From the NCBI GenBank assembly GCA_947170465.1, contig CAMVTS010000007.1, positions 1 to 61,229 on the forward strand: a DNA stretch of 61,229 nt. The letters run 5' to 3'. The position numbers and the translations under genes are program-made. How positions within the stretch are numbered: position 1 is the first letter of the stretch; each line of letters opens with the position of its first letter. Positions 47,766 to 55,309 of the stretch are shown here, piece by piece. This DNA comes from an uncultured Clostridia bacterium. GTDB lineage: Bacteria; Bacillota; Clostridia; Oscillospirales; Acutalibacteraceae. A model generated the notes under the pieces. The model made no database searches. It was not told the DNA's origin and saw only the letters and a list, made by a program, of their open reading frames with translations.

Positions 47766-49286
47766 ATGCTCTATACACCATTAACGAAAAAAGCGCTGAT
47801 GATTTCCTTCAACGCGCATAAAAATCAAACGGACAAAAGCGGCATGCCATACGTCTATCATCCGTTTCACCTCGCTGAGCAGATGGACAGCGAATACGCC
47901 GTCTGCGTCGCCCTGCTGCATGATGTGGTTGAGGACACCGACATGACGCTTGAAGATTTGAGAGAAGCAGGCTTTCCGCCGGAGGTCATCGAAGCGCTGG
48001 CGCTGATGACGCATCATGACGGTGTGCCGTATATGGATTATGTCCGCCGGCTCAGCGGCAATCCGCTGGCGAAGCAGGTCAAGCTGGCAGACCTCCGTCA
48101 CAACAGCGACCTCACCCGGCTGGATTATGTAGATGATACAGCCCGTCGGCGCGTCGAAAAATATCAGCAGGCGATAGACTTGCTTACGGGCAAGGTTCCT
48201 GTTCTGCAAGACCGTATCCGCGGCTGCCTGATTGGCGGCGCGGCAGGAGACGCGCTTGGCTATCCGGTGGAATTTATCTCCGAGAGAGAAATTGATAAAA
48301 GATACGGCTCAGGAGGCATTCAGGAATATGAGATGAGCCGTTACAGCCATAAGGCGCTGATTTCCGACGATACCCAGATGACGCTTTTTTCCGCGGCGGC
48401 GGTGGCGGCATGTATTACACGCGCCAACCATCGCGGCATTGCCGCAGACCCGAGGGTTTACGCCAATTTTGCCTATCAGGGCTGGCTAGTCACGCAGGAA
48501 ATGAGCTTTGACGAGGTGCGCAAAGCCGAAAAAGACAATCAGGTTGACATTTGCGCCGGCTTTTTGATGGAGCAGCCAAAATTATATGCCAGAAGAGCGC
48601 CGGGTATCACCTGCCTTTCCGCGCTGCATACCAGAAAGCGGCAGCGCGAGGAAAAAATATACGTCAACAGCTATGTGAAGGATGTTATCAACAATTCCAA
48701 GGGATGCGGCGGCGTGATGCGCGTGGCGCCTGTCGGCATGCTGAATACCGATGATATGGACTTGCTCGACCGGGAGGGCGCTGAGTTTGCCGCCATTACC
48801 CATTGTCATTCTCTGGGGTATATGCCGGGCGCGGTGCTGACGCATGTCGTTCACCGCTGCCTTTACCGCAAGGGTCAGACGCTCCGGGAGATTGTGGAGG
48901 AAGCGCGCGACTCGGTGGCAAGACTGTATGCTGAGGATGAGCATATCGGCACGCTGGTTGATATTATCAACCTTGCTATCGCACTTTCCGAAAACGACGC
49001 GCCTGACCTTCAGAATATTCACGAGCTTGGAGAAGGCTGGATTGCGGAGGAGGCGCTCGCCATCGCGCTTTATTGCTGCCTGCGCTATCCGGACGACTTT
49101 TCAAAGTGCCTTGTCGTCTCCGTCAACCACAAGGGCGACAGCGATTCTACCGGCGCGATTGCCGGCAATATCCTCGGCGCGTGGTCTGGCTATGAAGCGA
49201 TGGACAACAAGTGGAAGCAAAATCTGGAGCTGTCCGATGTGATGCTGGAGTTGGCGGACAGCATTTACGGCGAGGTGAGAAAGTGA
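47766..49286 (+). CDS. RSH-type HD hydrolase domain fused to ADP-ribosylglycohydrolase
   Basis: HD part: MISFNAHKNQTDKSGMPYVYHPFHLAEQM…VALLHDVVEDTDMTLEDL; ADPRGH part: RIRGCLIGGAAGDALGYPVEF, SDDTQMTLF, HKGDSDSTGAIAGNILGA. Confidence 0.9.
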   Translation: MLYTPLTKKALMISFNAHKNQTDKSGMPYVYHPFHLAEQMDSEYAVCVALLHDVVEDTDMTLEDLREAGFPPEVIEALALMTHHDGVPYMDYVRRLSGNPLAKQVKLADLRHNSDLTRLDYVDDTARRRVEKYQQAIDLLTGKVPVLQDRIRGCLIGGAAGDALGYPVEFISEREIDKRYGSGGIQEYEMSRYSHKALISDDTQMTLFSAAAVAACITRANHRGIAADPRVYANFAYQGWLVTQEMSFDEVRKAEKDNQVDICAGFLMEQPKLYARRAPGITCLSALHTRKRQREEKIYVNSYVKDVINNSKGCGGVMRVAPVGMLNTDDMDLLDREGAEFAAITHCHSLGYMPGAVLTHVVHRCLYRKGQTLREIVEEARDSVARLYAEDEHIGTLVDIINLAIALSENDAPDLQNIHELGEGWIAEEALAIALYCCLRYPDDFSKCLVVSVNHKGDSDSTGAIAGNILGAWSGYEAMDNKWKQNLELSDVMLELADSIYGEVRK

Positions 49287-51938: not shown

Positions 51939-52619
51939 TTACTCCTTGTGAATTTTTTCAGCAGAAAGGACGGTGACGGTGCTGTTTGCCACCCTGAAGC
52001 GCACGTCATAGCCGGCGTAGGCAAAGCCGTATACGCGCTGCGGGTCGTCCTGATAGCCCGGTCTGGGGTCATAGGAGAGCGCTTCGTGCAGGGCGGCAAG
52101 CTGTGTTTCGTTAAAGAGCGCCGCCACCTCCGGCGGCATTGTCACGCGGAGCGGTTCTGTCGAGCCGTAGCTGCCGCCCTTTGCGCTGGGAACGCTGTCG
52201 GCAAAGGGGAGATAGGGCTTGATGTCCAGAATCGCCGTGCCGTTCATCAAATCGGCGCCGGCAACGGTCAGCACCATGCCGCGTTCGCCGTCCGGTTTGG
52301 CGGAAATCAGCTTCACGCGCGTCAGTCCGATGGGATTCGGACGGTTGGGAGAACGCGTGGCGAATACGCCGGCGCGCTTGTTGCCGCCAAGCTTCGGCGG
52401 TCTCACCGTCGGCGACCAGCTGCGCTTGCCCATCGGGTCAAACAGCCAGATCAGCCACAGGTACTCAAACGTCTCGATTCCCCTGAACGCCTCCGGCTGG
52501 CGAAAGTCGGGCTCCATCACGATTTCCGAGAGCAGATGCTCCGACATGCCGCTCTGACGCGGCAGCCCGAATTTGGTCGGGAAATCATTGTAAATCCGCG
52601 CGATGGGTTCAAACTCCAC
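51939..52619 (-). CDS. trmO: tRNA (N6-threonylcarbamoyladenosine37-N6)-methyltransferase TrmO
   Basis: FPTKFGLPRQSG…FATRSPNRPNPIGLTRVKL…DIKPYLPFAD. Confidence 0.93.
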   Translation of the reverse strand: MEFEPIARIYNDFPTKFGLPRQSGMSEHLLSEIVMEPDFRQPEAFRGIETFEYLWLIWLFDPMGKRSWSPTVRPPKLGGNKRAGVFATRSPNRPNPIGLTRVKLISAKPDGERGMVLTVAGADLMNGTAILDIKPYLPFADSVPSAKGGSYGSTEPLRVTMPPEVAALFNETQLAALHEALSYDPRPGYQDDPQRVYGFAYAGYDVRFRVANSTVTVLSAEKIHKE

Positions 52620-52695
52620 GCCGTCACATCCTTGTAATTTGCTGTGTATAGTATACCATTCTATCGAATAAATTGCAATCCTAAAATTATTCCGG

Positions 52696-52724
52696 TTGAC
52701 CTGAGGCTGGTTTTTGTGTAAAAT
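52696..52724 (+). promoter_or_regulatory. sigma70-like promoter upstream of TIR remnant / ADA-SLOG gene
   Basis: TTGACC - 17 nt - TAAAAT. Confidence 0.6.
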
Positions 52725-52769
52725 GAATGTAAGAACAGATATCTTTTTCGAAGGGGCAGGAGAAAAGAC

Positions 52770-52811
52770 ATGAGTAAACCGGCAGATGTTTTTATCAGCT
52801 ATAAGTCATAA
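52770..52811 (+). pseudogene. Truncated TIR-domain gene remnant (MSKPADVFISYKS*)
   Basis: RBS AGGAGAAAAGAC-ATG; 13 codons matching TIR box 1 (DVFISYKS) then TAA; only 47 nt to the next ATG. Confidence 0.65.
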
Positions 52812-52858
52812 TCAATAAGAGACAAGAAAGAAAAGCTGTTATAAGAGGAATCACCGAG

Positions 52859-55309
52859 ATGTTTGGAAAATTTTATCTTGACAAGGAAAAGGACGTCATT
52901 ATCGAGCTGGATATGACGAAAGAGGGCTTGTTCTACACCCTGCGCACGCCCAATCATGCCAAGGGTAATTTGATTACCAATCTGGCAAATCTCTGCTCGC
53001 TGCCGCTCAGTACCGGCGACGACGGCCTCAAGGTGATACAGGGCGGGGTGCCGTGCTATGTGGACGAGCGCAACCGCGAGGTATACGTCCTGCGGCTGGC
53101 GGACACCAAGGTCGCCAACATCTATCCCGACGGCGAAATTGAGCGCAAGGCGTATATTCCGGCGATATCCAAAACCCTGATGAGCCAGACCAAGGACTAC
53201 CGTCTTGACGCGCGCAAAACACTGGTCAAGACCTATATCCGCCGTGAATACAAATTCCGCACCGATTTGCACACCCACATGAACGCCAACCTCGACGCGG
53301 ATATCCTGATAGCGCTCGGCATTTTTCACCAGATTCGCTATCCGCTCTACTACGTCAAAAAGCTGAACCTCCGGCTGACGCAGGCGCAGAAGGATATCCT
53401 GTCGGAGCGCCGTCAGGAGGCCGCCAAGGGCTTTGTCCATTCCGCGCTGACCGGCAAGTACCTCACGCGCAAGATTGACGACAACACCTTTCTCAATTTT
53501 GCCGACTTGATTCTCAACAATCCCGACGCCGCCTATAATATTCCGAAAATCCGCGCGTCTCTGACGATTCTGAAGGACGGACAGGCAGTGTTCACCAATC
53601 TGGAGAAGGTCTATCTCTACCGCTACGTGTTCACCAAGGGACAGCCCTCTGAGGAGAGAATAGCGCTTGACAATTACCGCGACATTCCCGACGGGGATAT
53701 CGCACAAGCAGTCGGACAAATGCTGCGAGACAAAGAACAGCCTGCCTACGCGCACTTGACGCTGTTTCAGAATAAGCTGCTGTGGGTGGCAAGAGGCTTT
53801 CAGCGACGCGGTGTACTCTATGCGGAAATTTCCGACACCACCCTTGTCAAGCCGGAGGCTTCGGTGCACATGCTGCGGCAGGTGCATGAGGTCATGCCGG
53901 AAATCACACGCGAAACCGGCGTGGTGCTGCGCTTTTTGGCGGCTATCCGAAGGATTCCGCTCACCATTGTGCGCGACAATGCCGTACAGGACGACGTCGC
54001 GCAGCAGCTGCGCATTATCAGGGCGCTCGCCGTTGACCCCTACGTCGCCGGCAGCGATATTATCGGCGAGGAAATCAACGATATCCGCGATTTGCGGCAG
54101 GTGCTTGCGGAGCTGGTGATGATTGCCGGAGAAAATCCCGGCTTTGTCATTCGGATTCACGCCGGCGAGAACGACAGTCTGCGCGATAACGTCGCCAATT
54201 CCCTTGCCTGCGTGAAGGACGCGCTGGCTCCCGGTCAGCCCATGCCCCGGCTGCGTATCGGTCACGGACTCTACACCGCCAATCTTCACACGCCCAAGGG
54301 TCAGCAGCTCATTGAACAGCTGCGCGACAGCGGCGCGGTGCTGGAATTTCAGCTCACCTCCAACGTCCGTCTCAACAACCTCAGCACCCTCGGCAGGCAT
54401 CCGCTGCGCGATTACCTCAAGGGCGGCGTGCGGTGCGTACAGGGTACCGACGGCGGCGCGATTTACGGAACCGATTCGATTGACGAGCAGCTCGCGCTTG
54501 AACGCCTGCTCGACCTCTCCTATGAGGAGATGCTGGCAATGCGCCGTGCCGAGGACGAGATTTTTACCGGCAGTCTGCGCACCTTCAACGAACGCGGCGC
54601 GCACTTCCGTCAGCTTTGCGGCGGTGATATAGACAGGTTTCTCCGACAGCGCATTGCGCAGACCAAGGGCGGCGATACCGCCATGAGCATTGCGCCGCAG
54701 AAGCTCGACAGCGAACAAGTCCTGCGCGACCGGATTCGGGAGATTCCCACCGACAAGGTACCGGTGATTCTGCTCGGCGGCAGCTTCAACAGCAGCCGTC
54801 ACGCCACGCGCATGAGAGAGCCGCTCAGAGAACTCCTCCGCGAACTGGTTGACCGTCTTGACCCGGAGCAGGTCTGCTTCGTGATTGGCAGCCGCCTGAC
54901 CGGCTACGAGCGCGAGCTGGTGGAGCTGGCAGCGGATAAATTTGAGATTTTCGCGATTGTGCCCACCCGTCTGAACGCCGCCGAGGTCAAGCGCCTGCGG
55001 CAGAGCGGTGTTGGCGTGCGCGTGTCGATTGAGCCGACGCGCATGGGGCTGTACAAGAGCTTTGCCTATGAGATTTTCAAACGCCGTCCCTCGGTGGTGC
55101 TCGCCTTTGACGGCAATTCCGCCGGCGCCAACACCGTCCAGGAAGCCAAAAACGGCAAGCGCGAGGCGCGTATCTTTGTCAACCGCCATGCGAGGGTGCT
55201 CTACGCCAAGGCGCAGACGATTCAGGGCTACGTCAGCGTGATTGACGGCGTTCAGGACGTCGATATGATTCTCGCCTCCGTCCGCCGCGTCCGGAACGCG
55301 ATGAAATAA
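52859..55309 (+). CDS. Adenosine-deaminase-like protein with C-terminal SLOG-like domain
   Basis: ADA motifs DLHTHMNANLD, RIHAGEND, RIGHGLYT, LTSNVRLNNL, QGTDGGAIYGTD; C-terminus VPVILLGGSFNSSRHATRM…VLAFDGNSAGANTVQEAKN is Rossmann/SLOG-like. Confidence 0.8.
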   Translation: MFGKFYLDKEKDVIIELDMTKEGLFYTLRTPNHAKGNLITNLANLCSLPLSTGDDGLKVIQGGVPCYVDERNREVYVLRLADTKVANIYPDGEIERKAYIPAISKTLMSQTKDYRLDARKTLVKTYIRREYKFRTDLHTHMNANLDADILIALGIFHQIRYPLYYVKKLNLRLTQAQKDILSERRQEAAKGFVHSALTGKYLTRKIDDNTFLNFADLILNNPDAAYNIPKIRASLTILKDGQAVFTNLEKVYLYRYVFTKGQPSEERIALDNYRDIPDGDIAQAVGQMLRDKEQPAYAHLTLFQNKLLWVARGFQRRGVLYAEISDTTLVKPEASVHMLRQVHEVMPEITRETGVVLRFLAAIRRIPLTIVRDNAVQDDVAQQLRIIRALAVDPYVAGSDIIGEEINDIRDLRQVLAELVMIAGENPGFVIRIHAGENDSLRDNVANSLACVKDALAPGQPMPRLRIGHGLYTANLHTPKGQQLIEQLRDSGAVLEFQLTSNVRLNNLSTLGRHPLRDYLKGGVRCVQGTDGGAIYGTDSIDEQLALERLLDLSYEEMLAMRRAEDEIFTGSLRTFNERGAHFRQLCGGDIDRFLRQRIAQTKGGDTAMSIAPQKLDSEQVLRDRIREIPTDKVPVILLGGSFNSSRHATRMREPLRELLRELVDRLDPEQVCFVIGSRLTGYERELVELAADKFEIFAIVPTRLNAAEVKRLRQSGVGVRVSIEPTRMGLYKSFAYEIFKRRPSVVLAFDGNSAGANTVQEAKNGKREARIFVNRHARVLYAKAQTIQGYVSVIDGVQDVDMILASVRRVRNAMK

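Follow-up and report, generated by a model that had tools for sequence, protein, structure and literature searches.

The window, by which we mean the whole stretch of 61,229 nt of Clostridia DNA that was analysed, carries a 13-codon mini-ORF between the divergently transcribed genes for a TrmO tRNA methyltransferase and an adenosine-deaminase (ADA)-domain protein. The features at this locus are as follows.

51939–52619, minus strand: TrmO tRNA methyltransferase (PF01980, E 1.6e-39), the divergent neighbour of ADA and the synteny anchor
52696–52724, plus strand: predicted sigma-70-like promoter, TTGACC-17-TAAAAT (10/12 in a consensus scan)
52758–52763, plus strand: well-spaced ribosome-binding site (RBS) of the mini-ORF, AGGAGA (from the sequence)
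52770–52811, plus strand: mini-ORF of 13 codons, remnant of the 5' end (box 1) of a TIR gene (TIR-profile score with its null; DNA match to loci L041 and L033)
52812–52858, plus strand: rebuilt ADA leader of 47 nt with an AGAGGA RBS at 52844–52849 (from the sequence; the leader is absent from relatives)
52859–55309, plus strand: ADA-domain protein of 816 aa (PF00962, E 5.7e-13; predicted fold)

The putative promoter boxes, TTGACC at 52696–52701 and TAAAAT at 52719–52724, are separated by 17 nt, and the plus strand of 52600–52900 has just one other promoter-like site, a weaker one at 52623 (9/12). Short matches to the segment containing the −10 end of the promoter recur across many genomes of the genus. 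The TAA of the mini-ORF and the ATG of ADA are 47 nt apart, and thus the promoter, the good RBS and the gap described in the initial annotation are all present. Since the strongest promoter-like site precedes the mini-ORF and the consensus scan found none between the mini-ORF and ADA, the two are probably co-transcribed from the promoter before the mini-ORF. Elsewhere in the window, the translation of 47766–49286 (506 aa), read by eye, suggests an HD/RelA-SpoT-like N-terminal part and an ADP-ribosylglycohydrolase-like C-terminal part.

The assignment of the downstream gene to the adenosine deaminases was borne out by the PF00962 match and by the predicted model (mean pLDDT 82.6), which matched solved adenosine deaminases at Z 20–24. 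The HxH motif, the H and E of HAGE, the H of GHG and the metal-binding Asp are invariant among 35 sequences; the window ADA has both the ADA fold and the metal-site residues of the PF00962 superfamily and, going by the sequence and the model, looks intact. The protein has a conserved N-terminal region (about residues 1–120) and a Rossmann-like C-terminal part (about 630–816), which shows an alternating strand-helix pattern at 634–775 in the predicted model. A profile of this C-terminal part gave no convincing match among solved structures, Pfam returned no SLOG match and a weak, sub-threshold Toprim match for the protein, and PADLOC returned a weak CARF_ADA match, mainly over the ADA part. The same architecture recurs in a family comprising the window protein (52859–55309) and loci L065–L144, whose members have a Rossmann-like C-terminal part and an extra N-terminal region of ~120 aa that matches nothing in Pfam; the scan found 429 relatives, with variable neighbours, and Pfam, NCBIfam and PADLOC name only the ADA part. 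The gene is present in 41/161 genomes of the genus and 12/391 genomes of the class, and the plasmid collection holds no relative of it. This conserved, hundreds-strong family is a more promising subject than the mini-ORF.

TIR-type genes are often immunity-related. Positions 52770–52811 read ATGAGTAAACCGGCAGATGTTTTTATCAGCTATAAGTCATAA, which translates as MSKPADVFISYKS followed by a stop. A TIR profile was derived from the domains of related genomes, and over its first seven columns the mini-ORF scored 19.4 bits. Of the 1,288 ATG starts that the window contains, the next best scored 10.8 bits, and 40 Mb of second-order Markov null sequence, with 822,672 ATG starts, yielded none that reached 19.4 bits. 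At the DNA level, the 24-nt core GCAGATGTTTTTATCAGCTATAAG was compared by 480 strand-searches of fetched loci, about 4 Mb counting both strands. Its two best matches fell in box 1 of the intact TIR genes L041 (22/24) and L033 (21/24), while the third-ranked matches reached 18/24 and lay in unrelated sequence. L041, a TIR-LRR gene, was chosen for its DNA match (E 1.4e-4 for a single genome) and is hence biased as a DNA control, whereas L033 was chosen by the TIR profile alone and is the sole unbiased one. Box 1 (V-F-I-S-Y) of PF13676 lies near the N-terminus of the mini-ORF, and another N-terminal TIR of the genus, L019, carries FISYKSEEY. Because of the profile score with its null and the near-identical DNA in TIR genes, the sequence identifies a TIR gene as the source of the 13 codons, and the reading of the mini-ORF as a TIR box 1 in the initial annotation is upheld.

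Beyond box 1 the TIR fold, including the catalytic glutamate region, is absent, as the stop follows codon 13, and the TIR profile found no further TIR sequence in the 61-kb window. Only 47 nt remain before ADA and the profile finds no other TIR, which agrees with the earlier proposal that the remainder of the gene was deleted rather than frameshifted. The three TIR_2 genes of the source genome sit elsewhere, and the one inspected closely encodes a TIR-MORN protein. A degenerate DNA pattern for the first 12–13 codons, allowing three mismatches, found the window only among 161 genus and 394 order genomes, and a 27-nt pattern for ADVFISYKS, allowing one mismatch, found the window and one stop-containing site only among 391 class genomes. 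No TIR gene sharing the first 12 codons was found in these searches of the genus and the order, and E. coli genomes gave no DNA match.

The flanking genes allow the locus to be compared with its relatives. TrmO and ADA are divergent and directly adjacent in seven relatives (counted by genome), as they are in the window, and their pairing looks old on the basis of this gene order. In these seven relatives there is no TIR motif between TrmO and ADA, and the distance from anchor to anchor is 150–210 nt, versus 272 nt in the window. The boundaries of the insertion are ambiguous on alignment to the seven syntenic relatives, whose intergenic sequences are too diverged. Other relatives hold unrelated genes in the gap (L228, L229 and L230), and for this reason the gap, as judged from gene content, is a site where genes are gained and lost. 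The gene inside the gap of L228 (3763–4278) encodes a small secreted-like protein. The ADA start also differs: it reads M-x-x-FG in 63/70 distinct loci (taking the last Met before FG), while the window ADA begins directly with M-F-G, two codons downstream of the start used in nearly all relatives, and has ACC GAG at the positions of their first two codons.

Our preferred reading, to which we give a probability of roughly 0.8, is that a TIR gene was gained before ADA in one lineage and then nearly all deleted, so that 13 of its codons now stand before a rebuilt ADA leader. An N-terminal TIR gene of the PF13676 type would have arrived between TrmO and ADA in the lineage of the window only, and all but its first 13 codons would then have been deleted. 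Either this deletion or the preceding insertion would have replaced the native leader and start codon of ADA, with foreign DNA presumably joining ADA near its start codon, and the start would have moved two codons downstream, behind a new RBS. ADA would now probably share the promoter lying before the mini-ORF. Against gain followed by loss stands the fact that no relative with an intact TIR at the TrmO-ADA site was found, the intermediate being unseen. On this reading the mini-ORF is an ordinary scrap of a gene, presumably with no function of its own, and does not prove that a two-gene defence system was lost here. Two short similarities were considered as traces of an ancestral ADA leader, one in the mini-ORF leader (TATCTTTTT..AGGGG, similar to L079) and one in the 3' piece (GAAAAGCTGT, similar to L083), and both were rejected as short enough for chance.

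The strongest competitor of gain and loss is a functional, Thoeris-like pair in which a nucleotide signal made by the TIR protein activated ADA via its C-terminal domain, and of which the TIR half was lost. The position of the remnant, directly upstream of ADA on the same strand and probably under one promoter, suggests such a pair, and the initial annotation took the remnant as direct evidence either of a former TIR partner upstream of ADA or of a retained leader. We surveyed ADA orthologues in a species-level collection (one genome per species), taking the best 80 of 429 relatives, with identities from about 59% upwards. The TIR profile found a TIR adjoining ADA in two of these 80 loci: in L092, a complete TIR domain lies 65 nt upstream of the ADA orthologue, and in L096 a TIR lies downstream. 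Chance would give about 0.2 adjacencies in 80 loci, a rough estimate that uses no measured TIR density, and the two adjacencies may exceed chance. However, they represent different architectures on different sides of ADA, a C-terminal TIR after an unrecognised part (X-TIR) in L092 and a TIR-Sel1 in L096, and 78 of the best 80 of 429 loci have no TIR there. In L092 (2–634), the part before the TIR has a macro-like GTGDQG stretch and ends at the contig edge.

No TIR adjoins ADA in the genus loci examined or in eleven class loci, and ADA is highly conserved in genomes with no adjacent TIR. Apart from the complete TIR domain of L092, no TIR-like motif was found upstream of other ADA starts among the 129 examined, a number that includes duplicates, as some genomes appear under more than one locus id. 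Besides ADA itself, any one neighbour is shared by at most 12 of the best 80 of 429 loci, and the genes directly upstream of ADA, going by a visual reading of their N-terminal residues, look mostly unrelated and housekeeping-like. Because TIR genes rarely adjoin ADA and the neighbours vary, these comparisons do not support a general TIR-ADA partnership. The proposed search of related genomes for a TIR upstream of ADA was thus rewarded in L092, but not in the other loci among the best 80 or in the genus loci examined. A former TIR partner in the functional sense is not borne out by the TIR-free syntenic orthologues and by two dissimilar adjacencies, and we regard the lost pair as unlikely. A remnant beside a gene suggests that a partnership was lost, and about 100 orthologous loci, among which the pairing is not general, correct that view.

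A broader version, in which ADA would be the effector of an undescribed TIR-signalled system whose TIR is easily lost or works in trans, the window and L092 being snapshots of loss and presence, appears still less probable. A deaminase would, to our knowledge, be a novel kind of effector for a TIR system, and we found no literature on SLOG, adenosine deaminase and TIR as one system. If the ADA family responded to TIR-made nucleotides, the case would matter more.

It is also improbable, and slightly more so, that the mini-ORF is retained as a translated leader that would tune ADA expression. Its strong RBS, intact 13-codon frame and probable shared promoter are what a leader would have, but the mini-ORF is unique to the source genome, Rfam gave no match, and the 47-nt gap allows no direct stop-start coupling. 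The short ORF is not conserved upstream of the other ADA starts examined; the leader role is unsupported because no relative carries the mini-ORF. A frameshift fusion of the mini-ORF with ADA was rejected, as the two lie in different frames with no slippery site and the relatives lack such an extension.

That the assembler dropped a full TIR gene is very unlikely. The genome is a 191-contig draft, which leaves room for such an error, but three indirect checks speak against it: there are no direct repeats in 52600–52900, the genome contains no other strong copy of the 221-nt region, and the flanking TrmO-ADA pair is syntenic with relatives. A chance ORF resembling TIR box 1, which the very short frame and the absence of TIR sequence past codon 13 might suggest, is largely refuted by the empty null and by the near-identical DNA in TIR genes, and is scarcely credible.

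Among known proteins, the gene that left the scrap would be closest to the TIR_2 proteins (PF13676, N-terminal TIR), such as the TIR-LRR protein of L041 and L019 of the genus, whose N-termini carry box 1, (V)FISYK, as does that of the mini-ORF. L041 and L033 share near-identical DNA with the mini-ORF over 21–22 nt; whereas TIR_2 proteins have the full domain, the mini-ORF keeps box 1 only and lacks any C-terminal part.

Thoeris defence combines the TIR protein ThsB with ThsA, a SIR2-SLOG protein (PMC11204291, PMC7272460), and the window resembles it in that a TIR scrap adjoins the gene for a protein with a possibly Rossmann-like C-terminal part. However, the TIR in the window is not intact and the pairing is not conserved, in that only a remnant lies where Thoeris would have an intact TIR conserved beside its effector. 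The effector here would be a deaminase and not a SIR2 protein, and the SLOG label of the initial annotation is unconfirmed, with no Pfam match.

Cad1 is a CRISPR-associated CARF-adenosine deaminase (PMC11645235). The window ADA shares its ADA fold (Z about 22, predicted model), and the metal-site histidines and Asp are conserved in the window ADA family. The order of the parts differs: in Cad1 the ADA part lies at about residues 231–580, after the sensor, whereas in the window protein the ADA part precedes the extra Rossmann-like part.
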